Source: Nephrocerus scutellatus | Lineage: Eukaryota; Arthropoda; Insecta; Diptera; Pipunculidae | Length of the DNA stretch: 64,000 bases | NCBI GenBank assembly: GCA_947095585.1 | Contig: OX352766.1 | Location: 22,992,939 to 23,056,938, forward strand | Direction of reading: 5' to 3' | Part shown: positions 2,156-57,978 of the stretch, piece after piece | Position numbering within the stretch: position 1 is the first letter of the stretch | Layout of the letters: every line of letters starts with the position of its first letter | The notes under the pieces: model-generated | The model's database searches: none | What the model saw: the letters and a program-made list of their open reading frames with translations, nothing else | What the model was told of the DNA's origin: nothing | Position numbers and translations under genes: made by a program

Positions 2156-2168
2156 TGTCCCTATCTAC
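2156..2168 (+). other. R1 28S target motif (junction 1)
   Basis: TGTCCCTATCTAC joins the R1-B 3' UTR to the next fragment. It equals the first 13 nt of the 14-bp target duplication known for R1 in 28S rRNA genes. No other 28S sequence flanks it. Confidence 0.85.
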
Positions 2169-3184
2169 CAACTCCGCCGAAGCCGGTCCTAAGCCCGAGT
2201 TGAAAAAGGAGGAAGGGTAGAGGAACAGAACCTCAATAAAAAACCATGACTTATGTGCCCCCCCCCGGATGATTTAACGGAAGGGGCCTAGTCAGGCTTA
2301 AGAAGACTGGTGTTTGTGGATTTGCGAGATCCACATCACCGGGTGATTGTGTATTTGGATTCCTCACAATCACCAATGCTATCAGAAACATTTTAAAAAA
2401 GAAGATAATCCCCGGCGGTTAGGGGTATAGAAAACACCGCGGTACGGAACGCCTGAAGTAAGAGTCCTCTAAAGTTCCATTTTGTGTTAGGGTCCAGCAG
2501 CATCTTTGTTTAACCTTTTGTTAGATGCAGGACTCTTCCACGGTAGATTAAAAGAAAGGGCCACTGGTACTTAGAGATGCTTACAGTCGGGCAAACTCTT
2601 CGTATTTAAGTGGCCAAGTCTAACATATGTGAAGGGCCCAGGATAGCTTGCTATCCTTGGTGGGCCTAGGATGGCTTGCTGTCCTAGTGGCAAATGATAG
2701 GGTTCGAAGTTCCGGAAGGATGTGCTGCCAGGGTTTTGCCTTGTCAAATGCCCAGGCACTCATACCTAAAGGAATGGGTGATTCTTGATGCCAGATCTGA
2801 CCAAGGTTGCGTTTGGAAACTCGGGATAGCTTGCTATCCTGATGGCAAGTGAGATGGCATAGGTCACTGACGGATGTGCTGCTAGGGTTTTGCCTTGACA
2901 AATGCCCATGCACTCATACCTGAAATTTCCGACGCCATTGATGTCAGACCCCACCAAGGTCGAATTGGTACCGCGGGAATTGTCCGTGCCCACAGACAAA
3001 AAGGCCGGCCGTAAGGCTCGACCAGTCTGAGGACAATTGTGGTTGAGGACCCAGCTCGTTCTGGGGATGCAACGCGGGGGATGTGGTTTACTTTCGAAAG
3101 AATGGACCACTATTTAGTCGGTATTGAGTATGCTTCATGGCTCAAGCTAGGCAAGCGTGGGGCTCACGCTCCAACTCACGATCA
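2169..3184 (+). mobile_element. R1-like type C 3' UTR fragment with internal repeats
   Basis: Non-coding kilobase between two R1 target motifs, so most simply a 5'-truncated R1-like insertion. Its last 70 bases (GAGTATGCTT, GCTAGGCAAGCG, GGGGCTCA) recur at 37508-37577, again directly before a target motif, which defines a third 3' end type. Inside it are two diverged units about 149 bp apart with GGATAGCTTGCTATCC palindromes and GGATGTGCTGC...GGGTTTTGCCTTG, starting near 2640 and 2823. No ORF of substance is present. The family assignment rests on position and the shared 3' end. Confidence 0.6.
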
Positions 3185-3197
3185 TGTCCCTATCTAC
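3185..3197 (+). other. R1 28S target motif (junction 2)
   Basis: TGTCCCTATCTAC between the type C 3' end and the 5' end of R1-A copy 1 (which begins CAGTGTTAGACAAACTC). Confidence 0.9.
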
Positions 3198-3260
3198 CCA
3201 GTGTTAGACAAACTCTTGCGACGAGCAGACGTGCAACGGAAGTATTTTCGAGGACAAAAC

Positions 3261-3304
3261 AGCGATTTTTATTGCTACATTCGCAAACAGTAATTTTTAT
3301 TACT
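3261..3304 (+). promoter_or_regulatory. Two 16-nt hairpins in R1-A copy 1 5' UTR
   Basis: AGCGATTTTTATTGCT (3261-3276) and AGTAATTTTTATTACT (3289-3304) each fold as a 6-bp stem with a TTTT loop; the first has one G-U pair. Equivalent hairpins recur in other R1 5' UTRs of this window with paired changes. The function is unknown; an RNA structure or a palindromic protein-binding site would both fit. Confidence 0.6.
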
Positions 3305-3352
3305 TCAACAAAGTGAAAACCCAACAAAACAAAACACACAGAACACAATCAC

Positions 3353-3356
<4 letters not shown>

Positions 3357-3389
<33 letters not shown>
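3357..3389. repeat. (AC)n microsatellite in the R1-A 5' UTR
   Basis: About 16 AC units directly before GTGCGCAGGTATAAAA. The same arrangement, shorter, is at 50161-50180 in copy 4, so the run belongs to the element 5' UTR. Confidence 0.9.
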
Positions 3390-3391
<2 letters not shown>

Positions 3392-3600
3392 GCGCAGGTA
3401 TAAAATCCCTACGCGAACAAACGCATTAGTGCGCGACCCAAAAATTAACACGTGCCGAATTGTGAAGAAATACGCTACCTGCTTATTACGTGAAATAAAG
3501 TGATAGTTAGCCGTCAGCATTTTGTTAGCAATTCTTGGAATTAATATAGAAAACAATTATAAAAGTGATCACTTCAGTGAAAAGAGAAATAAATCGCCAA

Positions 3601-4899
3601 ATGATGGAAAGCAGCGACAGTGAGAAAATTGAGGCAAACGCGGGGAAACCCAAACCACTCAGCAAACGTGTTGCCAAAAAGAGACAACAAAAGAGGACAG
3701 CATGCCTGGACAAACATCGGGAAATCTCTCCTTCAAAGAAAAAAAAAAGGAAATCACGACGCATCTGGTGAATCGATGGACGAAGAGCCAGAGGCAAAAG
3801 AAAAAGCAGGTAAGAAAGTTAAATTTCCTACAAATAATGAATCCATCATATATATATCCGACCATGAACTTACTGACGGCGAAGTTTGCAACAATAAGGG
3901 GCAAACAGAAAAAAATATGATTGTAAAACAAAAAACCGAAAAAATCACCAATGCATTGGAAAACATAGAGGTATCTTTTGACAAATACCCGAATACGACG
4001 ACCATTAAGAAAACATTCTTAGAAAATCAGGGGGAAATCCTGCGAACGTGTCTCAGCTTGGTCGCGACAATTAGCGATAAGGAGACAGAAATTCGCGAAC
4101 TGTGGAAAAAAATCCACGACATAGAAAAAAAGACAGGGGAACAGTAGAGACAAAAATAACCGGACAAATTATTGGCACAAAAAGGGCAATACCTCCAGGG
4201 TACAACGCTAATTTTCCACCAATAGGTCGAAAATCCAGAGATCGTTCAAACTCTAGGACGAGACATGCGATGCTAACACCAAAAAAACCATTAGGGAAGT
4301 CATCAAAGGGGCAAACCTGGCACCATTCAACGCATAGAAAAACCATACAAAATGGTAAATGCATAATTGAGTCTGAATCAAAAAAAGAACAGGAAAAACT
4401 CAAAGAAGCATTGGACAAAGCAAAAGAGCAACTGACAACAAGGCCATTCAAGACACCAAATCCCGTACTCACTATCTTGGGAGTTGACTCAGAGGCCGCG
4501 CTTAACGAAACGACCATCGGCAGCGATCTCACACAATACAATCCCAGAATTGCGGAAAAAATCGGGACAGAAACCATGAAAAAAGGGATCAATTTCCTAA
4601 CAAAAAGGAAATGCCGGAACCTCCAGAAAGAAAACTGGAAGATAGAGGTAACCCCAGAGATATAAAAAGTCCTCATCAAAGAAGAACGAGTCGTGATCGA
4701 TTGTACATATGCTTACCTTAAGGAATGCATCGAGTTGGCAAGGTGCTACAAATGCCAGAGTTACGGGCATGTAGCAAAATACTGCAAGTCCACAAAGGAA
4801 ATTTGTCCAAAATGTGCTGAAAAGACCGACAACAAAGATCACATTTGCGGAAACAGAACCATATGCTGTATAAACTGCAAGGATATATTAAGAAATTAA
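3601..4899 (+). pseudogene. R1-A copy 1 ORF1 (Gag-like, zinc knuckles)
   Basis: RNA-binding Gag-like protein of an R1-type element, expected to coat element RNA. The start at 3601 (MMESSDSEKIE) is the first in-frame ATG after the 5' UTR. The basic N-terminus reads KKRQQKRT...PSKKKKRKS, then a run of ten A (3739-3748) shifts the frame to an acidic stretch. A second shift near 4130 leads to the conserved middle (TPNPVLTILGVDSEAAL, GINFLTKRK). After an in-frame stop at 4663 the cysteine knuckles follow: CYKCQSYGHVAKYC (CCHC), CPKCAEKTDNKDHIC and CCINC. The C-terminal end is lost before the ORF2 start. Confidence 0.85.
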
Positions 4900-4923
4900 A
4901 ACAGACCGGACATCTCATCAACT

Positions 4924-7840
4924 ATGGTAAAAATTAAAACCATACAAGTAAACATAGGCAGAGGCAAAGAAGCCACAAACCTATTGGAAAGAACAATGGA
5001 GGAAAGGAATGTCGATGTGGCCCTAATTCAAGAACCATATAGAAGAATGAAAGTTAGTAAAACCTTCACTCTTTATATGCACCATGGAACAGGCGCTCTA
5101 AAAGCCAAGACGGCGATCGTTGTAAGAAACAGCACCATATCGGCATTGCTTCTTCCAGAATTTACCGACGACAACTTGGTAACGATTAAACTTACCAATA
5201 CAATACCGAATATTATTGTAACTTCGGTATACATGGAGCCCCTCTCTCGGATGTAAAGACACTTTATAAAGATAAAGAGCATCATCCAGAAATATAGAAA
5301 AAATATCTTAATAGCTGGAGATATTAACTCTAAAAACCCACTATGGGGCGGCGAGACCATAGACCGAAGAGGAGAACGTTTAATGGACCTCATAGCCAAA
5401 GAAGGCCTAAACATAGAAAATAATTGCGACAGCGAACCCACATTCTTTACCAGCCATGGAGAAAGCTGGATAGATATAACCCTTACCAAGCAACTAAGCA
5501 TCGAAGGATGGAAAGTCGAGACTACCGAAACACTAAGCGACCATAGGTACATGGAGAGAAACCAGGAAAAGACGAAGATGGATGCAAGAATCCACGGACA
5601 ACATCAGAAGAGCAATTCTCAATAATGAGTACAAAAGCCAAAGAAATAAGCTCAAAAAGATGATAAAAGAAGCCAAATTTCAGTCCTTGAACAGAGTCTT
5701 AGAAGAAAACAATTCAGAAATGGACCCGTGGGGAGTTGCCCACAAGATACTAAACGCAAAAGGCAGGACACAAACACAAATAAAGTCCATCCAGAAAGCC
5801 GACGGAACATGGACACAAACCATTGAGGAAACAACCACTGAATTAATGGGAAAATACTTTCCAAAAGACTCGTGTGCCGACGACTCTGCACAGAACAATG
5901 CAGATAGGCACGAAACTTGCATATGGCAAACGCAAGAAGAGTGCGACATAACCAAGGATGAAATTACAGCGGTAATTAGAACTCGTAGAAAGAGAAAAGC
6001 CGCAGGCCACCGATAAATTCCCGACAATAGCACTAAAGCCACTCTCGGAAGAAATTCTGAGGAATTGGCTAGAAGTGTTGAACCTCTGCCTAAGAGAAGG
6101 CAAGTTCCCGGAGATTTGGAAGGTAGCTGAGATAGCTTGGCTACCAAAACCAGATACAGACGAAGTCAGACCAATCTGTCTTCTTCCTACAATCGGAAAA
6201 ATCTTTGATAAAATCCTTGCAGACCGCCTGGCTCACCACCAGGAGTCGAATCGGAAGCTCTCGCCAAATCAATATGGCTTTAGAAGAACGAGATCATCCG
6301 CACAAGCAACCGAAAAACTTATGGAAGTAATAAAGGAAAATAAGGCTTGTAAGCGCCACACACTGACTGTGACGTTGGACATTAAAAATGCGTTCAACTC
6401 AGCTTGGTATCCCAGGCTGAAACTCCTCTTGGCGAACACTGGATGCCCTGAAAAATTAGGAAAAACCATAATAGATTTCCTACAGCAACGTAGGATAAAA
6501 TCGAATGGTGCAGAGTTAAGAACATACTATCAGCTGTCCCTATCTACGCAGTTACATTGTGACACTCGAGGTGAACAGACGTGTAGAAATCTAGTGCGCA
6601 TCAATATTGAGCTACAAAGTGCTAAACAATTATTGACAAAACACAGAGACAAAACCCACAACCAAAAAGCAATTTTTATTGCTACACGACAAAAAATATA
6701 GACAACAAAATTCAATATGTGGGCATAATTATTGATGACAGATTAACATGGATCCAACAAGCAAAGTTCGTTAGAGGAAAAGCATCAGCCAAAGCGTACA
6801 GGCTATTCATCGTCGCAGGAAAAACTTGGGGAACCAGTAGGGAAATTCTGAAAACGATTTACGAAGAAGCCATCAGACCAATGCTCACATACGGGGCAGA
6901 AATCTGGGGCAAAAATCCCAAAAACAGATACCTGCAAAAGCCCCTGGAAGCAGCTCAAAGGCCATTTCTTATGGCTTTGAGCAAAGCTTACAGAACCACG
7001 GCAAACAAGTCCATCCAAATACTGTCGAACTAAGCGCTACTTCATCTAGAGACAAGACAGAAATTTGAGACAGAAGAGGACAGGAAAACTGGAGAAAAAT
7101 GGAGATTGCGACAGGAGTAGGCGCCGTCATTCAAGATGCATATACCACCTCAATAAGGAAATGGACTGCCCCAAGAATACCGGAGTCCCACAGGGCAGGA
7201 ATTACAGGGGTCAGGAAAGCACTGGAATGCCTAAGCCCCAACAAAATGGGGAAAACGATAAACATCGTGTCGGACTACCGAGTGGCACTAGGGAAAATAT
7301 GCACACAAAGCAGATGTAGCACAGATGTACATAGCAGACCGCATGGCTAAACAGGCGGCAACGTTGCCAAACACATATGAGCGGATAAGCATAGCCAGGC
7401 CGCTTAAGGCAGCAAATCAAGAGGCGCGTAAAAGGATGAACAACAACAGGATACAGGAGTGGAATAATTCATCCCTCGGACGGGCGGTTCATGACGCTAT
7501 CGGGAAGCCCACAGGGAACTGCACCAACCTGGGAAAAAAGGCAGTATACCTAATAACGGGTCACGGACCTTTTATCAGCTACTTCCGTCGTTTTAGGATT
7601 AGAGATGTCCCAAACGTCTGCCCCTGCCAAACGGATGTTGACAGCATTCAACATATTTTGAATGACTGCACACTTCCACAGAGGATAGAAGCACGGAGGG
7701 AATTTAAAAATAAATATAGAGAAGAGCACATCGTAATAAAAATAGACGATGCCTCAACCAAAGAATACCTAGACGACGTGAATGCACTCGCGGAAAAGAT
7801 GGTCTTCGATTACGAAGACGCACAAATCATGGAGCAATAA
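4924..7840 (+). pseudogene. R1-A copy 1 ORF2 (endonuclease-RT-RNase H)
   Basis: Replication protein of an R1-type element. The ATG at 4924 starts VKIKTIQVNIGRGKEATNLL, the APE-like endonuclease, with LIQEP and AGDINSKNPLWGG visible and a stop at 5254. The C-terminal SDHRY is present as LSDHRYM near 5550, followed by a deletion into the linker. RT begins with IAWLPKPDTD...RPICLLPTIGKIFD and VTLDIKNAFNSAWY. The palm core (PQGSCLGP, FADD) is gone, replaced at 6535-6698 by an R1 5' UTR fragment. The thumb follows (VGIIIDDRLTW, LTYGAEIWGK). RNase H is damaged (HRAGIT, internal deletion). The finger CPCQTD...HILNDC is intact and the frame ends at 7840. Confidence 0.88.
6535..6698 (+). mobile_element. 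R1 5' UTR fragment replacing the RT core
   Basis: Begins with TGTCCCTATCTAC (6535-6547) and then GCAGTTACATTGTGACACTC, the same 5' start as the element at 37591, and includes the hairpin AGCAATTTTTATTGCT (6668-6683). It ends abruptly and ORF2 thumb sequence resumes at 6699. Compared with other copies the catalytic RT palm has been lost at this spot. Either a second R1 inserted here and then suffered a deletion, or recombination or template switching produced the join. Confidence 0.75.
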
Positions 7841-8000
7841 TCATTGCAAAATGATCAGGGATCCCCCCGCTAATTGTTGGAGTGTGGTTTGGTGGTTGGG
7901 TTCCTTTGCCTGCGGATCCGCGTGATGGTTAAGAAGGACTTAATATTTGCTTAATACCGAAAGGTGGGGAAGCGGAGGGCTTGCCCTCAATAATATCAAC

Positions 8001-8013
8001 AGTCCCTATCTAC
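8001..8013 (+). other. R1 28S target motif (junction 3, one change)
   Basis: AGTCCCTATCTAC, one base from the usual motif, between the 3' UTR of R1-A copy 1 and the type D 5' UTR. Confidence 0.8.
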
Positions 8014-8842
8014 ACAGTTGTGTTTGAACATCAGAAGCGAAAGGTTGCTTTGCGCATCGCAAGTACGTGTAGTAATAGTAAAGTAAGCAACGAAAACCTG
8101 AGGAGTCTGCAGAACAGCCGCCATTAAGTGACTGTTCTGATTAGCCGCCGCGAAAAATGATGACAAGGAGACAGTCCATGGTACAAGAAGCGGCCCAAAG
8201 CAAGGACGATGAAAAAAAAGGCAGACAACGCTATGGAAGAAGAAGCCGAAAACGAAGAAGAAAGCTCCTCAGAAAGCTCCTCAGATGATGAAGACGACGA
8301 GGAAGAAGAGGTAAGTATCGAAGATAAAATAACCGAGTTCATTTCTAGCTCAAAAGAAGCTGCACTAAGGAGCGAAAATCTCTGTAGGAAAATTGCCTGT
8401 AAAAGTCAAGATCTCAAAGACGGCGAAATAACAGCCATCAGCAAGAAAATCTGTCAGAACATCGTAGACGATTTAGTTCTGTTGAGAACATGGAACAACG
8501 CATTTGTCGACAAAATAAAGGAATACATAACACGGGAGAAGCTGACGAACAAACTAATGAAGAACATGGAGAAATGTATGGAAAATATGTACGAAAAAAT
8601 GATGACAAAAATGGAGGACAAAATAGTTGAGACTATTAAAAAGATGGAGGGCTCAGGCAAAAGTCTCATTGGGACACAGCCAGTTCCTCAACTACTTCCG
8701 ACGAGAATAATGCCAGTCACGGCTACAGCAGTACTCCCGTGCAGTGCGCCGCACTGTCGCAACTGCGATTTGAAGGGTCAGCTTGCTGACCATCAGATGA
8801 TGTCAAGAGGCTGTCCTATCTACAGTGGACTGGTCGCCGGTT
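8014..8842 (+). mobile_element. R1-like type D 5' fragment
   Basis: 5' end of another R1-like element directly after a target motif: short 5' UTR (8014-8156) and most of an ORF1, then cut off where the TTTAGR satellite begins. Its 5' start (ACAGTTGTGTTTGAACATC) differs from types A and B, so it is called type D here. No ORF2 follows. Confidence 0.7.
8157..8842 (+). pseudogene. Type D ORF1 (acidic Gag-like), frameshifted
   Basis: The likely start at 8157 reads MMTRRQSMVQEAAQSKDDEK; the MTRRQS box is shared with ORF1 at 43616 and 53619. In a run of eight A (8212-8219) the frame changes to the long open frame that can also be read from the ATG at 8209. That frame has a Ser/Glu/Asp-rich segment (EEESSSESSSDDEDDEEEE), a long helical Lys/Glu-rich middle (LMKNMEKCMENMYEKMMTKM), then a cysteine-poor tail (CRNCDLKGQLADHQ...RGCPIYS) resembling the last knuckle and CPIF box of R1-A ORF1. 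It ends by running into satellite DNA, so the C-terminus is missing. Confidence 0.7.
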
Positions 8843-9780
8843 TTCTAGATTTAGATTTAGAATAGGTTTAGATTTAGGTTTAGGTTTAGATTTATATTAA
8901 GATATAGATTCAGATTTAGAATAAGGTTTAGATTTAGATATAGATTTAGGTTTAGAATTAGGTTTAGATTAAGATTTAGATTTAGATTCAGATTTAGATT
9001 AAGATATAGATTTAGATTTAGAATATGTTTAGATTTAGGTTTAGTTTTAGATTTATATTAAGATATAGATTCAGATTTAGAATAAGGTTTAGATTTAGAT
9101 ATAGATTTAGGTTTAGAATTAGGTTTAGATTAAGATTTAGATTTATATTCAGATTTAGATTAAGATATAGATTTAGATTTAGAATACGTTTAGATTTAGG
9201 TTTAGGTTTAGATTTATTTTAAGATATAGATTCAGATTTAGAACAAGGTTCAGATTTTGATATAGATTTAGGTTTAGAATTAGGTTTAGATTAAGATTTA
9301 GATTTAGATTCAGATTTAGATTAAGATATAGATTTATATTTAGAATAGGTTTAGATTTAGGTTTAGATTTAGAAATAGATTTAGCTTTAGATTTAGATTT
9401 AGGTTTAGGTTTGGGTTTAGATTTAGAATAGGTTTAGATTTATATTAAGATATAGATTCAGATTTAGGATAAGGTTTAGATTTAGATATAGATATAGATT
9501 TAGGTTTAGAATTAGGTTTAGATTAAGATTTAGGTTTGGATTTAGATTTAGAATAAGATATAGATTTAGATTTATAATAGGTTAGGATTTAGGTTTAGGT
9601 TTAGATTTAGAAATAGATATAGCCTTAGATTTAGGTTTTGGTTTAGATTTAGGTTGTGGTTCATAATTGGGTTTAGATTTATGTTTGGGTTTAGATTTAG
9701 ATTTAGAGTTGGATTTAGACATAGGTTTTGTTTATATTTAGATTTAGATATAGATTTAGGTTTAGATTTATATTAAGATA

Positions 9781-10825: not shown

Positions 10826-10829
10826 GTAG

Positions 10830-36069: not shown

Positions 36070-36072
36070 CCC

Positions 36073-36988: not shown

Positions 36989-36989
36989 T

Positions 36990-37591: not shown

Positions 37592-37693
37592 CAGTTACAT
37601 TGCGACACTCGAGGTGAACAGACGTTTTAAATTTGAAGGGCGCATTCTGCATATTACCCGACAAATACGGAATTTACATCGAAAAACCAAATC

Positions 37694-43016: not shown

Positions 43017-43097
43017 TGTCCCTATCTACTTGCTTTATACCGAAAGGTGTGAAAGCGGAGGGCTTGCCCTCATTTATATAATCTGTCCCTATCTACT
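43017..43097 (+). mobile_element. 54-bp R1-A 3' end between two 14-mer targets
   Basis: TGTCCCTATCTACT at 43017-43030 and again at 43084-43097; between them only the last 3' UTR bases (TGCTTTATACCGAAAGGTG ... GAGGGCTTGCCCTCA). This is what a severely 5'-truncated R1-A insertion into the target at the end of the previous copy would leave. Confidence 0.88.
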
Positions 43098-43167
43098 CAG
43101 TCTTAGACAAACTCCTGTGACGAACAGTCGTTTATACGGAAGATTTTACTAAAGGCATAATTAAATC

Positions 43168-43183
43168 AGTGATTTTCATCGCT
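43168..43183 (+). promoter_or_regulatory. 5' UTR hairpin with compensatory changes
   Basis: AGTGATTTTCATCGCT: stem AGTGAT/ATCGCT with one G-T pair and a G-C pair where most copies have A-T; loop TTTC. Confidence 0.55.
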
Positions 43184-43615
43184 AAAAAAAACCCCAACAG
43201 AGAAAATAAAAATAATGTGCTAACTGGTGCTTACACACTTACACACATCATAAACACACATTCTGTTTTAAAATTGATTTTTATTACCACAACCAAAGTG
43301 TATTCCGTGAAAAATAAAAATGTTTATGACCACACAAGTAAATCTGGTGAAAAATAAATATTTATTGTGCACAAGTGTGTTTTTATACCTGAACAACGGC
43401 ATTAATTACCGTGTGTGTGCTCCCGTGATAAAACGCAGTGTTTTATTACCGTGTAGGTGTGCGCGAAGTTACCAGTGAGATTAATATACTTGACGCAGGT
43501 ATAAAATTGAAAATTGTCCACCGGAATTCTCTTAATAAAAAAAAAAAGTCACCGCGACAAAATGGGAGGGAGCCCTAAACAGCCCAACGTTAAAAAATCA
43601 AGGACCAAATCTTGA

Positions 43616-46234: not shown

Positions 46235-47891
46235 CGCTAATAGTGAAACCCATTAAGGTACCAAAGCTCATTATGCTACTCATGGGCATTGACGAAAACA
46301 ACGACCTAAGCTAGGAAAACATCGGAAAAGACCTTGCAGCTTGCAACCCAGACCTCTCGGAAAAAATCGGGGCTAGCAAATTCGCAGAGGGAATCAAATT
46401 TCTGGGAAAAAAGAAAAATTATAACTCCAGGAGGGCCAACTGGAAAATAGAAGTAACCCCTGAATTTACAAAGTTCTGAATAAAGAGGAGAAAATTATTG
46501 CAGATCTCACGTGGGTATATATTAAAGAATATACCGACCTTGCAAGATGCTACAAATGCCAGGGCTACGGACACGTAGCCAAATACTGCAGATCAACGCA
46601 AGAGGTTTGCCCAAAGTGCGCAGAGAAATCTAGCACAAAGGACCACATACGCAAATCCGCGATCCCGTGCTGCATAAACTGCAAATAAATGAAGCAACCC
46701 AGCACAGACCACTTCGCCTGGGATAGCAAATGCCCAATCTTCAGAAGGAAACTGAGACAAGCAGGAACCCTCATCGACTATGGCAATAATTAAAATTATT
46801 CAAGTCAATATAGGCAGAGGCAAAGAGGCCACTAACCTACTAGAAAGGGTAATGGAAGAAAGGGGCATTGACATAGCCCTAATTCAAGAGCCATATAGAA
46901 GAATGAAAGTTAACAAAATTTCACTCTCTATATGCAGCATTTAAAAACAGGCCGAGACCTAAATGCCAAGACGGCAATCATAACCAGAAACGCCACCATC
47001 TCGGCTTACTACTGCCAGAATTTATGGATGACAACTCGGTGAGGTTGAGAATCGTCAACATAACGCCGAACATAGTTGTAACATCTCTGTATATGGAGCC
47101 GCTCTCTCGTATGAAAAGACACCTCAAAAAGATAGAGAATATCATCCGAAAGTATAGGAATAACATCCTAATAACTGGAGATATTAACTCCAAAAACCCA
47201 CTTTGGGGAGGTGAAATCATAGACCGAAGAGGGGAAAGGTTTATGGACCTTATAGCCAAAGAAGGTCTTCATATTGAAAACAATTGCGACAGCGAACCCA
47301 CTTTCTACAACAATCATGGAAAAAGCAGGGTAGACATAACCCTCACAAAGGAACTCAACGTCGAAGACTGGAGAGTCGAAACGACCGAAACATTAAGCGA
47401 CCATAGGTACATAGCATTCAGTATCAACACTGAAATGGAAGCTATAAGAATAGCTCAGACCTATAACACAGCAAGAGCTGACTGGTCTAGTTTCGAGCGA
47501 GATCTACAAAACCATGTCTGACAAACGAATGACAGGGAATTGTCAGCAAATGATCGTGCCACAGAACTCCAAGCCTTGGCGACAGCAGCATGTAATGCAG
47601 CTATCCCGCTAAGAACTGGAGGAATAATGATAAAATACAAACCATGGTGGACAAGGGAGCTGCAATCCCAAAGAAGAGAAACCAGTAAAAGGCGAAGATG
47701 GATGCAAGAATCCACGGACTACATCACAAGAGCAATTCTCAATAATGAGTACAAAAGCCAAAGAAATAAGCTCAAAAAGGTGATAAGGGAACCCAAATTT
47801 CAGTCCTTGAACAGAGTCTTATAAGAAAATAATTCAGAAATGGACCCGTGGGGAGTTGCCCACAAGATAATAAAAGCAAAAGGCAGGACAC
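46235..47891 (+). repeat. Second unit of 1657-bp direct duplication
   Basis: Repeats 44578-46234, including the same stops after the endonuclease and in the linker, and then continues into RT. Confidence 0.92.
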
Positions 47892-49805
47892 AAACACAAA
47901 TAAAGTCCGTCCAGAGAGCCGACGGAACATGGACACAAACCATTGAGGAAACAACCACTGAATTAATGGGAAAATAATTTCCAAAAGACTCGAGTGCCGA
48001 CGACTCTGCACAGAACAATGCAGATAGGCGGTAATAAGAACTCGTAGAAAGAGAAAAGCCGGAGGCCCCGATAAATTCCCGACAATAGCACTAAAGCCAC
48101 TCTCAGAAGAAATTCTGAGAAATTGGCTAGAAGTGTTGAACCTCAGCCGGAGATTTGGAAGGTAGCGGAGATAACTTGGCTACCGAAACTAGACACAGAT
48201 GAAGTCAGACCAATCTGTCTTCACCCTACAATCGAGAAAATCTTTGACAAAATCCTTGCAGACCGCCTAATGCACCACCTGGAATCAAACGGGAAATTCT
48301 CGCCAAATCAATATGGCTTTATAAGAACGAGATCATCCGCACAAGCAATAGAAAAACTTCTTGAAGTAATAAAGGGAAACAAGGCTTGCAAACGCTAAAC
48401 ATTGACTGTGACGTTGGACATTAAAAATGCGTTCAACTCAGCTTGGTATCCTAGGCTTTAACTCCTCCTGGCGAACAGTGGATGCCCAGAAAGGCTAGGA
48501 AAGACCATAGTAGATTAGATCCTACAACAACGTAGGATTAAATCAAATGGTGCAGAATTGATAACGGAAAGAGGCATCCCTCAAGGATCATGCCTGGGCC
48601 CAGTTCTTTGGCTGATCATCATAGAATAGTGGTGGAGTGACGAAATGAAAAACTCTCAAACTGCAGCTTTTACCACGCTACATGTCCAAGCGTTTGCAAA
48701 TGACCAGGTAATAATGATCTCAGGGACATCCCTGAGCAGGATCGAAGAATTATGGACACAAACATGGGAAAATTGCAAAAGATGGGCACAGAACAACAAA
48801 CTCAGCTATGCGCCACAAAAGAAAACAGCAATGTTTATCCCATCAAGGCCATCTGTTAGACCACCCCGCATTAAAATCGATGACATAAATGTTCCAATAG
48901 GTAATAAAATCAAATACCTCAGGATAATAATCGATGACAAGCTCACATTTGTAGAACATGCGAAATTCATCAGAGGAAAGGCAACTGCCAAAGCATATCG
49001 ACTCTACATTGTCGCAGGCAAAACCTGGGGAACTAGCAGAAAAATTCTAAAAAGGATTTATGACTGTGCCATCAAACCACTGCTAACTTATGGGGCAGAG
49101 ATCTCGGGCAAAAACTCAGGAAACAGATACCTGCAAAGGCACCTTTAAGCAGCCCAAAGGCCATTCCTCTTAGCACTTACCAAGGCATACAGAACAACGG
49201 CCAATAAGTCCATACAAATACTGGTCAACAAGCCGCCTCTCTACTTGGAAGCCAGAGAGAGGTATGAGATTTACGAGGCCAAGAAAACTGGCAGATTCGT
49301 TGAAAAATTGCCACCAAGCATGTGGCCACATCCAGCTAAAATGATATCAAGACCATATAATAACCTCGAGCAGATCAGAGAAGGAATAGCAGCCAACACA
49401 ACATGGATCTTCACTGACGCATCCACAACAGAAACAGCTACCGGAATAGGCGCTATAATTCAAGATGAAATCTTCACAGCAATAAAGAAATGGACCGCCT
49501 CAAAGACACCAGAGATCCACAGGGCTGAAATTACAGAGGTGTTGAAAGCCCTTGAATGCCTGGATACCAACAAAAGAGAAGACGTCTGCCCCTGTCAGAT
49601 GGATGTCGATAGCATTCAGCACATACTGAATGACTGTACGCTTCCAGAGAGGGTTGAAGCACGAAGGGAATACAAAGAAAATTACGGACAAGAGAACATC
49701 GTACTAAGGATAGACGACATCTCTGCGAAAGAATACCTAAACGACGTAAACTTACTTGCTGAAAAGATGGTCTTTAGATACGACGACGAACAAACGAACG
49801 GATTA
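46780..49805 (+). pseudogene. R1-A copy 3 ORF2, second pass (endonuclease-RT-RNase H)
   Basis: Start at 46780. The endonuclease motifs LIQEPYRRMKV, ITGDINSKNPLWGG and LSDHRY are readable but frames shift near 46915. RT: RPICLHPTIEKIFDKIL, VTLDIKNAFNSAWY after a stop, GIPQGSCLGPVLW, a frame break, and QAFANDQV, where the catalytic FADD is FAND. The thumb is open (RIIIDDKLTFVEH, LTYGAEISGK). RNase H starts well (WIFTDASTTETATGIGAI, HRAEITEVL) but is cut after LDTNKRE and joined to the finger CPCQMD...HILNDC. The normal stop is lost and the frame runs on through the 3' UTR into the next copy. Confidence 0.87.
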
Positions 49806-49966
49806 AATTGCAGAAAAATAAGCAAGGTCTCCACGCTAATTATTGGAGTGCGGTTTGGCGGTTGGGTTCTCTTGCCTGCGGATTCGTGTGGTAGTTCAGA
49901 CGGACCTAATGTTGGCTTTATACCGAAAGGTGGGAAGGCGGAGGGCTTGCCCTCAAATATATCAGA

Positions 49967-49979
49967 TGTCCCTATCTAC
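49967..49979 (+). other. R1 28S target motif (junction 5)
   Basis: TGTCCCTATCTAC between copy 3 3' UTR and copy 4 5' UTR (CGAGTCTTAGACAAACTC). Confidence 0.9.
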
Positions 49980-50271
49980 CGAGTCTTAGACAAACTCTTG
50001 CAACGAGCAGACGTGCAACGGAAGAATTTTCGAGGACAAATCAGCGATTTTTATTGCTAAACTACACAAAAGGCAAAACAGTAATTTTTATTACTCAAAC
50101 AAAGTGAGAAACAACAGTGGGAAAACCAATAAAACAAAACACACAGAACACAATTACGCAAACACACACACACACACACAGTGCGCAGGTAAATCTGAAA
50201 TCAAAACAAACGATACACAAAAGTGCGCGACAATAAAAACGAAATAAAGAACAAGTGCAAGTTATAATAAA

Positions 50272-51580
50272 ATGAGGAAACACAGAACCTCACAACTACA
50301 CCCGGAATCACGTATTAAACATAAGAGGAAGAAAATATCGAACGAAGAAAACCAAAAGAAACAGGTTAAAATAGAGGAACAAAACACGGAAAGCGATATG
50401 GAGATTGAAGTACCAGAAACTACAGGTAAGTGTACCAAAGATTTTCTAAATGCTACCTCATCTGACGATACGAACTCCGACAGCGCTGTAGCCCCAGCCC
50501 CAAAAACAACCACTACGTTAACTAAAGCCACAACAGTAAAACCCCTAAATGATAAACACCCCAAAAACAAGGCGCATTAGGAAATATACTGCGCCTTACA
50601 GACGAGTATACCGACATCAAAAGCGAGATATTGAAAAACGCACTAAAAATTAAAGACAATTGTATAGACCTCCTTGTAGAGATCACTGGCAGGGACGCGA
50701 AAATTTTCAAAACAGTGCAGCAGACCCCGACTATAGTAATGACAACTCCTCAACAAAGACCCAGAAACAGATCAACTCAGAGGAAACAAACAGGGGAAAC
50801 TTTCTGGACCACGCAACCTGCCCAGAGACAACTCAAACAAAACCACCAATTACAAGACAGTCTTGCAAACGACCGATACAGATGAAGCCGCGGGAAAACT
50901 TTTCAGCGAAATTGTCAAAGGAAAAAACCCCGAAAATTACGGAGGACCTTTAATCGGCGCAAATAATCTAAAAAGCGGATGCCTCATGATAAGGACTACA
51001 TGCAAAGCAAACTACAGCAGACAATAGTAGCAGCAGGCAAAAATAAGCTAACCGTCAAGTCACTTAAGGTCCCAAATACGACGTTAGTATTATTGGGGGG
51101 TCGATAAATATGAAGACCTCACTGAGGAACATGTCGGAAAACAATTGGCAGACTTCAACCCCAAAATCGCCGAAAAAATCGGGTGGCAAAAGATGGCAGA
51201 TGGAATTAAATTCCTGGCCAAAAGAGACAACAGAAATACGTCGAGGTAAAACTGGAAGATAGAAGTATCACCAGAGGTCTTAAAAGTCCTTATTTAAGAG
51301 GAAAAGATAATAACAGACTTTCTGTTCGTCTACATCAAGGAAAGCATGTTATAAATTCCAAGGCTACGGTCATGTGGCAAAGTACTGCAGATTTGTAAAA
51401 GAGATCTGCCCAAAGTGCGCGGAAAATCGGATACATACATTTGCATACCTGCAAAAGTGCCACGCTATGCTGCGCAAATTGTGAGGAAAGATACAGCACA
51501 TTGCGCCTAGGACAATTAATGCCCAATTTTCATGAGGAAAGTAAGACAATCTGGAAATCTTATCAATTATGGTAACAATT
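50272..51580 (+). pseudogene. R1-A copy 4 ORF1 (Gag-like)
   Basis: Start MRKHRTSQLHPESRIKHKRK, basic, then an acidic Ser/Asp segment and APAPKTTTTLTKATT; stop at 50578 after a frame slip. The helical block resumes as LKIKDNCIDLLVEITGRDAK. The middle is heavily mutated with several stops (51000-51300). The first knuckle has lost its CFKCQ part although the KATVMWQSTAD-type frame still shows the following bases; CCANC is visible. It ends near NYGNN before the ORF2 ATG. Confidence 0.78.
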
Positions 51581-52832
51581 AATGATATCCAAATTAATGT
51601 AGGCAGAGGCATAGAGGCCACAAACCTGCTAGAGCAATTCATGGAAGAGAATAAGATAGACATAGCCCTCATCCAAGAACCCTTCAGAAGAATGAAGGTA
51701 AATAAGAACTTCACCCTCTATCTGCCAAACAAAACGGCAAGGACGCTGACGGCTAAAACGGCAATGGTGTTAAGGAACAGCACCATTACGTTAATATTCA
51801 GAATTCAGAATTCACTGATGACAATTCAGTGACCGTAAAAATTACAAATACAGTAGCCAATATTGTATTGGTGTCACTGTATATGGAGCCACTTGCCAGA
51901 ATGAAAAGGCACTTTCGAAAAATGGAGAAGATTCTTCAAAAATACAAGAAGATTGTTGGCGACATCAACTCCAAAAATACAATTTGGGGTGGAGATACCA
52001 CGGATAGAAGGGGAGAAAGGTTCATGGACCTCAGACCAAGGAGGCCTCAAAATAAAAAAAAAGTACCGCCAGCGAGACTACATTCTACACACCACATGGA
52101 CAAAGCTGGGTAGCCATTACTTTGACAAAGGACCTAAACGTCACTGGGTGGAAGGTCGAAACGACCTAAACACTGAGTGACCATAGGTATCTATTGTATA
52201 ACATAGACACTGAAAAGGAACCTATGAGTATAGCTCCAAGATACAATTTGTCTAGAGCAAATTGGTCTCTGTTCAGAAATACCCTTAATAGCCATGAATG
52301 GGAAGTAAGCGCAGAAAACGCAACAGCTAATGAGAGGGCTATTGAACTGCAAGATTTGGCCACAGCGGCTTGCAATTAAGCCATACCCTTGAGACCTGGA
52401 GGTGTCTTTGCAAACAACAACACATGGTGGTCAAGAGAGCTACAAAAGCAAACAACGAAAACAAGGACAAAAAGAAGAAAAATATAAGAGACCAAAAATA
52501 TTGGGACGCCTTCTGAATGACGTTGTGGAAAAACCAACGAAAAATTGCATCTATCTTGGACCAAAAACAGTTTGCCTGTTAACATGGCCCGTTCAACAGC
52601 TACTTCCGTAGATTTGAAATAAAATGGACTCCGGACTTGTGCCTCTGCCAAAGGGATACTGACAACATTCAGCACATACTGAATAATTGTCCGCTCCCGC
52701 GTAGAGAGGAAGCAAGGAAGGAGTTCAAGGAAAAATATGGTCAACAAGACATAAGACGATGACTCCACTAAAGAATATCTTAGAGACCTAAACACGCTGG
52801 CTGAAGAGGTAGTTTATGAATATCCGGATTAG
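51569..52832 (+). pseudogene. R1-A copy 4 ORF2 (endonuclease joined to C-terminus)
   Basis: MVTINDIQINVGRGIEATNL starts the endonuclease. LIQEPFRRMKV is intact. A short insertion near 51795 shifts the frame. The IVGDINSKNTIWGG motif is present after a small deletion, and SDHRY survives at 52176-52192 (TGA CCATAGGTAT, Ser lost to a stop). After the linker (KRGQKEEKYKRPKI) the sequence jumps to the region just before the finger (NDVVEKPTKNCIYLG). The finger is CLCQRDTD...HILNNC. No polymerase domain remains. Confidence 0.83.
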
Positions 52833-53005
52833 GACGACATCAAATAGAAATAAGAAATAGCCAGGGTATCCCCGCTAATTGTTGGAGAGAGTTTTAGCGG
52901 TTGGGTTCTCTTGCCTGCGGATTCGTGTGGTAGTTAAGACGGAACAAATATTTGCTTAATACCGAAAGGAGGGAAAGCGGAGGGCTTGCCCTCAATAATA
53001 TCAAC

Positions 53006-53018
53006 TGTCCCTATCTAC
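53006..53018 (+). other. R1 28S target motif (junction 6)
   Basis: TGTCCCTATCTAC between copy 4 3' UTR and copy 5 5' UTR (CCAGTCTTAGACAAACTC). Confidence 0.9.
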
Positions 53019-53362
53019 CCAGTCTTAGACAAACTCTTTTGTGTCAAGCAGACGTTTAGCGGAAAAGTTTTTCGAAGAGGCAACCAAACCAGCAGTTTTT
53101 ATTGCTACAGCCAAAAATTAAAACCACACACAAACATACACAAGAAAGCATAAAGTGCGCGCAGGTATAAAACACCGACGCGAAACAACCCAAACATTAG
53201 TGCGCGACCTTTAGGAACCTAATTAAGGAATATTTTACCCGGAAATTACTCGCACACAGTAATACGCTATAATACCGTCGGTATTGTGAAACCCCGTCGG
53301 CTTTTTAACTAACGTAAAAACGGAAAAGTGGAAAGTGAAAAAAGGAAATAAAAAACAAAATC

Positions 53363-53598
53363 AGCGTGACAGTGGGAGAAAATCCAGTCATACAACACGT
53401 ATGTGGAATGCTCTGCCAAGCTCTCTTTCCACATCACTATGATCCACAGACATTCAAGACACAAGCTCATAGACATCTCCTCTCTTCTTCTCCTTTTCCG
53501 TAACGCCCACGCTGTGCCAAGCATATTGCCGAACATAATAATGGTGCGAACCCCTTTTTGCGTGCGCAAATTATAAAAAAAAAAAAAAAAAAAAAATT
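53363..53598 (+). mobile_element. Jockey-like LINE 3' end with poly(A) and target duplication
   Basis: Reads MWNALPSSL, then HYDPQTFKTQAHRHLLSSSP after a one-base slip, the usual C-terminal box of Jockey/CR1-group ORF2. A poly(A) run of about 23 (53574-53596) ends the insert. AACAAAATC occurs on both sides (53354-53362 and 53599-53607), consistent with a target duplication. A 5'-truncated insertion of about 235 bp into an R1 5' UTR. Confidence 0.82.
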
Positions 53599-53618
53599 AA
53601 CAAAATCTCAATAAGACG

Positions 53619-54664
53619 ATGAAAAGCGATGACGACAAAAGCCCAGAAGAGTTACCCAGGAAGATTATGACGCGGCGACAATCAATAGTAAGTGAGCTTG
53701 CCATTTATAAAGGGTTGGGCGAAGGTAATAAGACATACGCAGACACAGTTAAAAGGGGCGATAATAAATAGCTCATCCGACGCTGACCACGCTATGGCCA
53801 ACAAATAATACGACGCCAAAAAGTATACGGTAAGCGTTTCCTCGGATGGCACGGCTAAAAGTGCCAAGTCATATAACGATAGGGGTAACAAGACGGGCCC
53901 AACTAGCCCAAAAGACGTGGTAAACATAATTAAAAAAGAACTGGAAAAAATTAAAGATGCCGCGGAAGCATTTAGACATTAAAGAAACTGGAGGGCCCCT
54001 TAAAAAACTAAATACCCTACGGAGTGGGGATGTTCGTATCGGCTGCTACGCCAGGGAACAATTAGTCAAAGTCCAAAATACTCTGACCAAAAAATCTAAG
54101 GACATACTGACAGAGAAACCCCACAAGACCCCAAAGCCAATCATGCTCCTCATGGGCGTAGACGAAAACGCTGAATTAAATGAAGCACAAATAGCATAAG
54201 ACCCCGCAGCCGGCAACCCAGACCTCGCAGAAAAAATCGGGGCATCCAAAATGGAAGAAGGAATTAAATTTCTAGGGAAGAAGAGAAACTTCAACTCCAG
54301 ACGGGTTAACTGGAAATTTGAGGTGACCCCCGAGATATACAAGGTCCTCATAAAAGTGGAAAAAATTGTAGCAGATTATTCCTGGGTGTATATCAAGGAA
54401 TACACTGATCTTACAAGATGCTACAAATGCCAGGGCTACGGGCACGTAGCTAAATGCTGCAGATCAACGCAAGAGGTCTGCCCAAAATGCACGGAGAAAA
54501 CCGCAACAAAAGAGCACACATGCAAAACCACAGTTCCATGCTGCGTGAATTGCAAAGAAATGAAATTAGTCCGAACAGACCATTTCGACTGGGACAGCCA
54601 ATGCCCAATCTTTAGACGAAAGCTGAGACAAGCAGGAATACATATCGATTATGGTAATAATTAA
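53619..54664 (+). pseudogene. R1-A copy 5 ORF1 (Gag-like)
   Basis: Start MKSDDDKSPEELPRKIMTRR at 53619; the first segment runs 51 codons to a stop at 53769. Further stops follow until VVNIIKKELEKIKDAAEA. A deletion leads to HLDIKETGGPLKKLNTLRSG, GCYAREQLVKVQ, MLLMGVDENAELNEAQI and one stop at 54197. From there the frame is open to the end: GIKFLGKKRNFNSRR, VTPEIYKVLIK, and three knuckles CYKCQGYGHVAKCC, CPKCTEKTATKEHTC, CCVNCKEMK...HFDWDSQC. It ends DYGNN at 54664, 14 nt past the ORF2 ATG. Best preserved zinc region in the window. Confidence 0.87.
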
Positions 54665-57495
54665 AGCCATACAGATTAACATAGGCAGAGGCAACGAGGC
54701 CACTAACCTACTAGAAAGAGTATTGGAAGAAAGGGGCCTTGATATAGCCCTAATTCAAGAGCCATTTAGAAAGATGAAGGTTAACAAAAACTTCGCTCTC
54801 TATATGCAGCAAATAAAGACAGGCCGACATCTAAACGCTAAGACGGCGATCATAACGAGAAACGCCACCATCTCGGAATTACTACTGCCAGAGTTCACGA
54901 ATGACAACTCGGTGACGGTGAAAATCACCAACACAGCACCGAATGTCGTAATAACATCATTGTATGTGGAGCCTCTGTCACGCATGAAAAGGAACTTGAA
55001 AAAGATAGAGAACATCTCCTGGAAATATAGGAATAACATCCTAATAGCCGGAGATATCAACTCTAAAAACCCACTCTGGGATGGCGAGACCATAGATCGG
55101 AGAGGAGAACGGTTTATGGATCTTATATCCAAAGAAGGCCTGTGCGTTGAGAATAATTGCGACAGCATACCCACTTTCTACACCAACCTCGGAGAAAGCT
55201 GGGTCGATATAACCCTCACCAAGGATCTACGTATTGAAGGATGGAAAGTTGAAACGACAGAAACTTTGAGTGACCATAGGTATCTGTCTTTCAGCACAAA
55301 CACTGAAATAGAACCTATAAGAACGGTCCAGATGTACCAAACGTCAAAAACAGACTGGTCACGTTTCAGGGAATACCTTCAAAACAATGTCCAACAAATT
55401 TGCGATAGGAACCTATCAGCAAATGACAAAGAAGAAAAACTAGGAAAACTCGAAGAATGATGCAAAACTCCACACAACCCATCGCAATAGCACTTCTCTG
55501 CAGCGAATACAATCCTTGAAGAAAATCCTAGAGGAGAATACCGCAGAAATGGATCCCTGGGGAGTCGCCCATAGGATAATAAATGCCAAAGGCAGGACAG
55601 GAACAAAAATAAAGTCCATTCAGATACGACTCTCGCCATACCAATACGGTTTTAGGAGAACTAGGACAACCACGCAAGCAATTGAAAACATACTGCATGT
55701 AATCAAGGCGAACAAAGCAGTGAATAGGTATTCCCTTACATCAAAAATGCTTTTAATTCAGCATGGTATCCTAGGCTCGAACTTCTATTGGCAAAGACTG
55801 GATGCCCAGAAAGACTAAGGAAAACAATTGAAGATTTCCTACATAACCGCAGGATCAAATAAAATGGCGTAGAAATGGCAACAGAGAGAGGTTCTCCTCA
55901 AGGTTCATGCCTAGGCCCAGTCCTCTGGTTACTCATCATGGAGGATTGGTTTAACGAACTAAGAAACGTGCAAACAGATGCATTCACTTCGTTGCACATC
56001 CAAGCATTCGCCGACGATCAGATCATAACCATTTCAGGATCATCCCTCGCTAGAATCAAGCAATTGTGGTCACTAACCTGGGAAAGCTGCAAAAGATGGG
56101 CGCATAATAACAAGCTAACCTACGCGTCACACAAGACAAAGGCTATGTTTATCCCATCAAAGCCATCAGTAAGACCCCCACAGATACAAATCGACAACAT
56201 GAATATCACCATCGATAAAGAAGATTTAATACCTGGGAATAATTATTGATTACAAACTATCATGGGTTGAGCACGCAAAATTCGTTCGAGGAAAGGCCTC
56301 TGCTAAGGCGTACAGGCTATTTATCGTCGCAGGGAAAGCTTGGGAAACACGCAGGGAAATATTGAAAAGAATATACGAGGGAGCCATAAGATCACTGCTG
56401 TTATACGGGGAAGAAATCTGGGGCAAAACCCCAATTAACAGGTAACTGCAAAGGCATCTTGAAGCAGCCCAAAGGCCATTCCTTCTGGCCCTTTGCAAAG
56501 CCTACAAGACAACGGCGCACAAAATTTATCTAAATACTGGCAAACCAACCACCGCTCTATCTTGAAATACGAGAAAGATCCGAGATACAGGAAGCAAGGA
56601 AAACTGGACAGTAATTGGAAAAATCGACACCAAACCTGTGGGCACATCCGGCCAAAATGAAAATAAGGACCTACCATACCTGCGACGAAAGCATCGGAGA
56701 TATTGCAGCTAATGCAATATGGATCTTCACGGATGCATCTACAATAGAAGCTGCGATTGAAATAGGTGCCATAATCCAAGATGCATACACAACATCGACA
56801 AGAAAATGGACTGCCGCAAGAACACCGGAAACCCATAGAGTAGAAATAACAGGGGTCATGAAACCCCTTGCTTGAACCCTGCTATATGCGGGTTACACTG
56901 GGGAAAATATGTAAACCCAAATTTGACGACCCAGATATTATTAACATCATCAACAAGTTAAAACACTTAGAAGAAACCGGAAACACTATAGCACTAAAAT
57001 GGACAAGAGGTCACAAAGCTGATGTAATGCAAATGGAAAAAGCAGACCTTATGGCAAGAAAAGCGGCTACATCTCCAAATATATACGAGCGGATAAGCAT
57101 CCCAAGGCCGCTCAAAAGAGCAAAGGAAAAGGCACACAAAAAAATGAATACCAACTGGACACTAGAGTGGAATAATTCCACTCTCGGACGCGAAGTACAC
57201 AACGTCATAAAACAACCCACAGGAAACTGTACCAGCCTGGGAACAAAAGCAGTTCACCTCATTACGGGCCAATGACCTTTCAACAGTTACTTCCGTCGTT
57301 TCATGATCAAAGATATTCCGAACATCTGCCCCTGCCAGACAGATGTTGACAGCATTCAGCACATACTGAATGACTGCACGCTTCCGCAGAGAATAGAAGC
57401 GCGAGAGGAATACAAAGACAAATATGGTCATGACGACATCGTACTAAGAATAGACGATGATAATATGATATGATAATATGGTCTTTGAATATTGA
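54651..57495 (+). pseudogene. R1-A copy 5 ORF2 (intact endonuclease, deleted RT)
   Basis: Start MVIIKAIQINIGRGNEATNL at 54651. The endonuclease is open to 55460 and keeps the catalytic motifs LIQEP (Glu), AGDINSKNPLW (Asp, Asn) and LSDHRY (Asp, His). Then a deletion and shift; the linker MDPWGVAHRIINAKGR is joined directly to LSPYQYGFRRTR, so the first third of RT is missing. GSPQGSCLGPVLWLLIMEDW and QAFADDQI are intact. The RNase H start is present (WIFTDASTIEAAIEIGAI) but HRVE replaces HRAE and a rearrangement follows. The later part has TRGHKAD...ADLMARKAA. The finger is CPCQTD...HILNDC. The last residues are deleted. Confidence 0.88.
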
Positions 57496-57687
57496 GAGGA
57501 AGTAGATCGACATATCTACGAAAAGGAAGAAGTAGAAAAGGGATCTCGGGTCCCCGCTAATTATTGGAGTGCGGTTTGGCGGTTGGGCTCTCTTGCCTGC
57601 GGATTCGTTGGTAGTTCAGATGATGAATTTTAAATGCTTTATACCGAAAGGTGGGAAAGCGGCGGGCTTGCCCTCAAATTTAGAATC
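57496..57687 (+). other. R1-A copy 5 3' UTR, clearest 28S-antisense-like block
   Basis: TCCCCGCTAATTATTGGAGT at 57551-57570, then GGTTTGGCGGTTGGGCTC and TCTTGCCTGCGGATTCG. TCCCCGCTAATTATT equals the reverse complement of insect 28S rRNA downstream of the R1 site as I recall it. Ends at a target motif. Confidence 0.7.
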
Positions 57688-57700
57688 TGTCCCTATCTAC
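57688..57700 (+). other. R1 28S target motif (junction 7)
   Basis: TGTCCCTATCTAC between copy 5 and an R1-B type 3' UTR. Confidence 0.9.
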
Positions 57701-57963
57701 CTCCCCGATGGTGCTGTTGTATCTTTCTGTCCTGATGTTACCGGTGCGATGATGCGTTCTCTGTGGGGTTGCATATCTCAACCGGTTGCCGAAAACCAAA
57801 TATCAGCAAGGATTTAAGATAGGTCCTGCTCTAACAATTGAGTTAATACTGGCACATCAGTCTATGATGGACGTTGATTGTCGTATAACTAATCCAAGTC
57901 CGAAGAGGACCGTGAAATTAAGCCCACAGTTAGCGGTGTTCACGTTAGTCAATAACATTTTCC
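57701..57963 (+). mobile_element. R1-B type 3' UTR fragment
   Basis: Non-coding; 57868-57955 shares GGACGTTGATTG, AAGTCCGAAGAGGACCGTGA and GGTGTTCACG with the R1-B 3' end at 2055-2150. A 5'-truncated R1-B relative between two target sites. Confidence 0.72.
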
Positions 57964-57978
57964 TTGCCCTTATCTTCG
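57964..57978 (+). other. Decayed R1 target motif (junction 8)
   Basis: TTGCCCTTATCTTCG aligns to TGTCCCTATCTACG with one insertion and two changes, between the 3' UTR fragment and a 5' end beginning CAGTTGAGTTGTGACACTC. Confidence 0.6.

Follow-up and report, generated by a model that had tools for sequence, protein, structure and literature searches.

How could the target sequence at which R1 retrotransposons enter the 28S rRNA gene come to be repeated, element after element, in a stretch of chromosome that holds no such gene? R1 and R2 are classic examples of parasites bound to the rRNA genes. The question is raised by 64,000 nucleotides of the Nephrocerus scutellatus assembly (C6:22992939-23056938; hereafter the window), which an initial annotation, made from the letters alone, described as a head-to-tail R1 array outside the ribosomal DNA (rDNA), with the 14-bp target between the copies, grown either by insertion into the target duplication of an older copy or by unequal exchange. 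The answer that we favour, with a probability of about 0.7, is that the window belongs to a chain of R1-type elements running in one direction, which began in a 28S gene with C at position 10 of the target (C10, the other spelling being T10) and grew by target-primed insertion into the targets that it carried along as well as by tandem duplication. Below, positions of up to five digits refer to the window and eight-digit positions without a contig label to C6.

A search of the window for TGTCCCTATCTACT, allowing up to two mismatches on both strands, yields ten matches, all on the plus strand, against a mean of 0.37 and a maximum of 2 in 100 shuffles, none of which reached ten, so that a chance origin is ruled out; selection preserving the motif was considered and is unnecessary for the explanation. 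These ten are the very sites listed in the initial annotation, and the decayed eleventh copy that it placed at 57964 (TTGCCCTTATCTTC, with a W-type 3' tail on its left and a 5' end on its right) is borne out too. The 13-base core is undamaged in nine of the 11 sites, and position 14 varies over the ten copies (C in five, T in three, G and A in one each). Directly to the left of 10 of the 11 sites lies one of three recurring R1-type 3' tails, which we label M, V and W, the sole exception being 6535, preceded by interrupted sequence of the second open reading frame (ORF2). To the right of eight stands a 5' end with A(+1)GT and a hexamer resembling the downstream promoter element (DPE), and what follows the other three is a 53-nt fragment of an M tail (43017) or a short element of 1,015 bp (2156) or 262 bp (57688). 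The arrangement claimed at the outset, a 3' tail on the left and a 5' end on the right, describes most sites, and the claim that no 28S flank follows any copy agrees with the word searches. Eight 28S flank words have zero matches on either strand of the window, where the core word GTCCCTATC occurs only at the ten motif sites; some of these flank words use TTCCTAC where the host spells TTCCTTC, and the host's own flank adjoining the target (GATTCCTTCTGTCCC) is likewise absent from the plus strand of the window. Nor does a search of the assembly with the upstream 28S flank find a place inside the window, or Rfam any rRNA in it.

The window is only a piece of something larger. In the assembly (613 Mb, 9 contigs), the exact 14-mer occurs 105 times in the forward and 8 times in the reverse direction, compared with 0 and 1 for a reversed-motif control, and 103 of the 105 forward matches fall, in clumps rather than evenly, within C6:22.29-24.03 Mb, the other two lying at 15.27 and 21.16 Mb; the reverse matches with a placement are at C3:29.53, C6:21.46 and C6:21.49 Mb. 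The chain so delimited spans about 1.7 Mb, its elements point in one direction, and the window lies inside it. We read 200 kb of it at C6:22.28-22.48 Mb, with 40 forward sites and one reverse (up to two mismatches in 13), and smaller stretches elsewhere. Classification by our own tail patterns covered 56 sites (38 in the 200-kb stretch, 11 in the window and 7 in two further stretches, L029 and L030), and at 55 of them, all on a single strand, the R1 28S target separates copies that follow one another head to tail. On the left there is an R1-type tail at 50 sites (22 W, 20 M, 8 V), 28S-derived sequence at five and something else at one; on the right, 23 ends with an initiator (Inr) and DPE, 14 heads of short elements, four ends of the CACTTGAG type, three tail-only pieces, one AGT start lacking a DPE and 11 unclassed. 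Full-length elements of unlike families, short passengers and tail-only copies alternate, with the target undamaged at the joins. The rDNA is on the same chromosome, about 1.2 Mb beyond the chain, and pieces of 28S, R2 and older fossils of 28S lie within the chain itself, so the description of the array as lying outside rDNA is apt for the window and too simple for the chain. Words of the downstream 28S flank were found in none of the chain stretches searched for them; two 28S/R2 pieces, which are one duplicated block with T10, agree with the 28S stretch of the rDNA at 60 of 60 positions, and three further sites are preceded by a 28S fossil 75-76% identical to that stretch (for one, Rfam E 1.7e-5). 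An R2 element with a 791-codon open frame sits inside a 28S piece of the chain at C6:22316124-22318496.

The target in the chain is spelled differently from that of the assembled rRNA genes. Searching the assembly with the upstream 28S flank, with either C or T allowed at position 10, gave 47 places. Of these, 41 match exactly, and every one of the 41 reads TGTCCCTATTTACT, that is, T10; 39 are in C6:25.28-26.72 Mb and the other two are the 28S/R2 copies inside the chain. The six places with one mismatch are four 28S fossils in the chain (C10), one copy on C2 (C10) and one in rDNA (T10, C14). With the downstream flank (up to one mismatch) there are three places, all TATTTACT: two 28S copies with an R2 insertion and an empty R1 site, one of which has 5.8S nearby on the other strand, and a W-tail R1 joined to 28S at C6:25290451, so that an R1 copy with one side in real 28S, which the initial annotation had proposed to look for, does exist. 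In the stretches read, chain targets show C10 in 75 of 77 cases (up to one mismatch in 13). Exact T10 words number 68 in the assembly, of which the rDNA region accounts for 55, the chain region for four and other places for nine; the reversed control gives 2 and 2. The exact words accordingly split as 103 C10 to 4 T10 in the chain versus at most 5 C10 to 55 T10 in the rDNA region, the five being reverse-strand matches lacking a placement that were counted as rDNA; as the sites are related by descent, the Fisher p of 3e-33 is a description rather than a test. C10 is likely to be the ancestral state of the 28S target, because C is found in the Rfam consensus as well as in the 28S fossils, of which four lie in the chain and the fifth on C2. 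In the C2 copy, which is old 28S, a tail-only element of 45 bases sits with a decayed target on either side. The initial annotation had reasoned that a host 28S devoid of the motif would undo its interpretation; the exact letters are indeed missing from all assembled flanked copies, which does not refute a carried target because the 28S fossils carry C10.

Could the motif instead be the elements' own 3' end, copied from their RNA? It does follow nearly every tail, and this is what made the idea worth considering, but it has next to no chance of being right. Tails identical over 110 of 110 positions are followed by TATTTACT in rDNA (snippets L038, L039 and L042) and by TATCTACT in the chain (tails ending at 22309763, 22356641 and 23352897), and unlike tails carry the same motif. 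The concern, voiced in the initial annotation as well, that the motif belongs to the element is refuted by these junctions: the motif is the target since C10 or T10 follows the locus while the same elements occupy both loci.

This sharing of elements is also a reason to think that the chain has been entered repeatedly. Over 1,495 bp, an R1 inserted in rDNA is 99.33% identical to a chain element (C6:22329949-22335695) that has C10 on both sides. From 20 rDNA snippets chosen by the T10 word we took 29 element flanks of about 110 bp, with ten 28S flanks and one containing N excluded; 15 of the 29 match the chain at 99% or more. To the left of the 21 sites in these snippets lie 28S in ten, W tails in eight, M in two and V in one. 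Since target-primed insertion copies the target it meets, C10 around young elements suggests that they landed in the chain; it would be unexpected if they had arrived with 28S DNA of the assembled type. Other junctions point the same way. The element C6:23907675-23908571 has the identical mutated target TGTCCCCATCTACT at both sides, and in the window the 53-nt element at 43031-43083 lies between identical 14-bp copies. The variants of position 14 form blocks: in the 200-kb stretch 32 of 37 neighbours agree versus 25.3 expected (p 0.00026, somewhat inflated by duplicated blocks), and in the window five of eight versus 2.3 expected (p 0.024). Taken together, the C10/T10 split, the shared young elements, TGTCCCCATCTACT and the position-14 blocks support the first of the two routes that had been envisaged, insertion into the target duplication of an older copy.

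The second route has left traces as well. A block of 7,122 bp is repeated head to tail at 99.85% identity (C6:22986445-22993564 versus window 631-7748), its edges lying away from any target, and the 200-kb stretch contains duplications of 11,040 bp (99.73%), 3,854 bp (99.69%), 5,220 bp (99.54%) and 3,279 bp (99.67%), and further ones at 97-99.3%. Given these plain tandem duplications, among which we count one of about 1,660 bp within a single element, and given that unequal exchange has been argued for Drosophila (PMC12400953, in its accessible text), is it not simpler to suppose a few initial insertions followed by growth almost solely through unequal exchange and block duplication? We consider this unlikely. 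Outside the duplicated blocks, the aligned stretches of window elements are mostly 67-82% identical (the exceptions being two W-type stretches at 89%, patches of a mosaic element at 91-95% and tail-only comparisons over 41-53 bp at 86-92%), and because of this low identity recent exchange does not appear to be the general source of the window elements. The mosaic in question, 3199-6534, is in one part about 91% like the element at 37592 and in the next about 95% like that at 43098. Furthermore, duplication alone would hardly bring unlike families, short passengers and tail-only copies into alternation with an undamaged target at the joins; it makes no 53-nt tail-only copy with a target on each side, and it does not account for near-identical relatives of rDNA elements standing on C10.

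A different proposal regards the chain as an ancient portion of the rDNA, still exchanging with it, gene conversion homogenising the element bodies and the C10/T10 boundary marking how far the tracts reach. Here the T10 28S/R2 pieces, with their perfect match to rDNA, and T10 at four places of the chain speak in its favour, whereas only 4 T10 words versus 103 C10 in the chain region, and the consideration that converting an element body requires a paralogue already present at the place, make it improbable to us. Several of the same facts nevertheless count against repeated insertion into the chain. Near-identity between chain and rDNA could stem from gene conversion of element bodies, and the insertions themselves are read off from junctions. 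The four T10 places, two beside the 28S/R2 pieces and two others, indicate that there has been either a degree of exchange with rDNA or recurrent change (T10 at 23957868 has a confused fossil context, that at 22893066 has a W tail on one side and a 5' end on the other). Of the rDNA element flanks, 14 of 29 have no chain match at 99% or more (11 match at 86-98% and three not at all); position 14 differs across four of nine window element pairs and is the same in five; and the five reverse-strand C10 matches have no genome placement. Unassembled 28S genes with C10 may exist, as the rDNA assembly has N gaps, and large parts of the chain region lie outside the stretches read.

With these reservations, the history that we favour, insertion into carried targets combined with block duplication, can be told as follows. 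The window would be a piece of a chain of about 1.7 Mb, made of R1-type non-LTR (long terminal repeat) retrotransposons and short passengers with copies of the 28S target between them, which presumably started in a 28S gene of the ancestral C10 type. A new copy would nick the target between two older ones, be reverse transcribed there and duplicate the target, so that the landing site multiplies along with the elements, and tandem duplication of whole blocks, which is directly visible, would have lengthened the chain further. Later the rRNA genes would have changed to T10, the spelling of all assembled flanked copies, with the chain retaining C10 and apparently still receiving insertions of young families found in rDNA. 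A bolder extension, to which we give somewhat less than even chances, is that R1-type elements thereby maintain a self-made landing ground, a chain of megabase size in which an outdated 28S target is both kept and propagated, and that lineages have become independent of rRNA genes for insertion. If the chain conserves a landing site after the host genes have changed, it is a refuge that rDNA turnover does not clean, and the one-base difference in the target, if the reading is true, labels each new copy by its landing place.

How does this compare with what is known? Tandem R1 copies separated by the 14-bp target have been described in seven Drosophila species by Stage and Eickbush (2009, PMC2718515), who infer insertion into an existing target duplication, report R1 outside 28S too and, in the part of their text available here, place many, perhaps all, tandem copies in rDNA loci. 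The present chain, whose copies are separated by the same target, is of this already known kind. Three features set it apart from the Drosophila arrays as presented there: its size (about 1.7 Mb beside the rDNA), the mixing of several families that differ deeply, and a target spelled as in none of the assembled exact 28S-flanked copies. Beside the X-linked rDNA of D. melanogaster there is an R1-rich region for which unequal exchange is favoured (PMC12400953, which cites McGurk and Barbash 2018); that large heterogeneous region adjoining rDNA, with segmental duplication, resembles ours, in which, unlike there as far as the available portion goes, insertion too is supported, by the C10/T10 mark and by a mutated target found on both sides of one element. 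Going by the same portion, the contribution of insertion versus unequal exchange to such regions has so far been argued from structure, and the C10/T10 difference makes the question directly testable in Nephrocerus scutellatus. The R2/R1 hybrid SIDEs (short internally deleted elements) of Eickbush and Eickbush (2012, PMC3414825) are short, non-autonomous, have R1-like 3' ends and 14-bp duplications, and occur between tandem R1 copies of D. willistoni; they recall the short elements mixed into our chain, and differ, by the accessible text, in that the heads CCCCGAGGGG... found here have no Rfam match and that tail-only elements of 45-56 nt are present too. Among the papers listed from the open-licence literature, judged by their titles and the openings of their abstracts, we found no report of a carried, outdated R1 target.

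Are all these elements R1? The M-type element 37592-43016 encodes apurinic/apyrimidinic (AP) endonuclease, reverse transcriptase and RNase H domains in broken frames. Both M and W types have an AP endonuclease related to R1Bm and TRAS1, as befits the R1 clade, with W slightly nearer to R1Bm (4.9e-14, versus 3.5e-12 for TRAS1) and M the reverse (TRAS1 1.6e-16, R1Bm 1.1e-12; for the window copy 1.9e-15 and 2.6e-10). One W-type protein, taken from the 200-kb stretch, matches endonuclease and reverse transcriptase and gives no match to RNase H; the identity between W and M proteins is 23% over 891 aligned columns. Among 52 protein relatives the best reach up to 46%, and the one named R1DM, from a spider, 27%. 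Not all of these R1-type elements are R1 proper in the strict sense, given the RNase H of one family and its 23% protein identity to the other. For the W type, insertion at the R1 site of real 28S is seen directly, its tail being followed at C6:25290451 by TGTCCCTATTTACT and the downstream part of 28S; for the M type the sign of 28S insertion is indirect, an M tail adjoining the T10 target at 2 of 21 sites in the rDNA region.

Inr and DPE are taken here in their general consensus forms. Six of eight undamaged window 5' ends combine A(+1)GT with a full DPE-like hexamer at +28; of the other two, one matches at 5 of 6 positions at +28 and one fully at +30. The full hexamer at +28 accompanies just six of the 189 CAGT words of the window, five of which are element 5' ends (the sixth end starts with GAGT). 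Inr+DPE ends (five or six of six positions) occur at 23 of the 56 chain sites, in 20 of the 23 at +28. These A(+1)GT starts with DPE-like hexamers suggest that R1-type elements own a promoter and would need no 28S transcript.

Short passengers with a common head CCCCGAGGGG..., about 160-800 bp long and joined to V or W tails, lie at C6:22300244-22300416, 22304694-22305486, 22854467-22855027 and other places, some stacked at 186-187-bp spacing. Rfam, where an R2 ribozyme was looked for, has no match to these heads, which by eye are unlike the host R2 5' end. Random 5' truncation was dropped as an explanation of 2170-3184 and 57702-57963, since their heads recur elsewhere. Tail-only elements of 45-56 nt (window 43031-43083; C6:22398199-22398254; C6:23352912-23352966; C2:18310813-18310857) sit at carried or fossil targets and start at nearly the same point within the M tail; perhaps this is the smallest piece that the insertion machinery accepts.

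Table. Elements and carried targets in the window (window positions; J and H are our labels for 5' ends, M, V and W for 3' tails)
Feature	Positions	Strand	Remarks
Right end of first copy of the 7,122-bp tandem duplication	1..626	+	Equals 7123-7748, 99.84%
W-type R1 element: 3' tail preceded by the 3' portion of ORF2	632..2155	+	
Carried R1 target TGTCCCTATCTACC	2156..2169	+	Between W-type 3' tail (left) and short V-tail element (right)
Short element with V-type tail	2170..3184	+	Head actccgccgaagcc... again at C6:22984514 and 22870001
Carried R1 target, ending ACC	3185..3198	+	Between V-type tail (left) and Inr+DPE 5' end (right)
M-type element (J 5' end), mosaic, truncated within ORF2	3199..6534	+	Comparison among window elements
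Carried R1 target, ending ACG	6535..6548	+	Interrupted ORF2, no 3' tail left; 5' end with Inr+DPE right
H-type 5' end fused to ORF2 and M tail (internal deletion)	6549..8000	+	
Carried R1 target, single core mismatch (AGTCCC...)	8001..8014	+	Motif search and flank reading
5' end and ORF1-like stretch of another element, remainder lost	8015..8870 (end approximate)	+	
5'-shortened element (ORF1 end, endonuclease) fused to V-type tail	36000..37577 (start approximate)	+	
Carried R1 target, exact 14	37578..37591	+	Motif search and flank reading
Long M-type element (H 5' end): ORF1-like frame, endonuclease, reverse transcriptase, RNase H, M tail; broken frames	37592..43016	+	
Carried R1 target, exact 14; left flank of 53-nt micro-element	43017..43030	+	Motif search and flank reading
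53-nt micro-element, M tail alone, between two exact 14-bp targets	43031..43083	+	
Carried R1 target, exact 14; right flank of 53-nt micro-element	43084..43097	+	Motif search and flank reading
M-type element with J 5' end; about 1,660 bp duplicated internally	43098..49966	+	44577-46234 versus 46234-47903, 98.4%
Carried R1 target, ending ACC	49967..49980	+	Motif search and flank reading
M-type element, internal deletion spanning the reverse-transcriptase region	49981..53005	+	
Carried R1 target, ending ACC	53006..53019	+	Motif search and flank reading
M-type element	53020..57687	+	
Carried R1 target, ending ACC	57688..57701	+	Motif search and flank reading
262-bp short element: CCCCG-like head fused to W tail	57702..57963	+	
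Decayed carried R1 target	57964..57977	+	W-type tail left, W-like 5' end right
W-like element, undamaged 5' end, decayed, 3' end lost	57979..61370 (end approximate)	+	

Scans of viral contigs and plasmids found nothing. Long degenerate TAGATT repeats (8846-9779 and 9948-10119) lie beside the end of the first R1 block, and a 122-bp tandem repeat at 14062-14559 is related, in inverted orientation, to sequence at about C6:22427442-22428031. Among and beyond the R1 blocks lie fragments of other reverse-transcriptase elements (25506-28386, 33372-34229 and 61830-62950), and open frames at 29587-30527, with no Pfam match, are Penelope-like by a guess from their translation. Finally, a mariner-like transposase (DUF4817) is encoded on the minus strand at 22502-23632 in a single open frame of 376 codons; its best match is at 98%, and the named matches below that are to sequences of a spider, a sea louse and flies.

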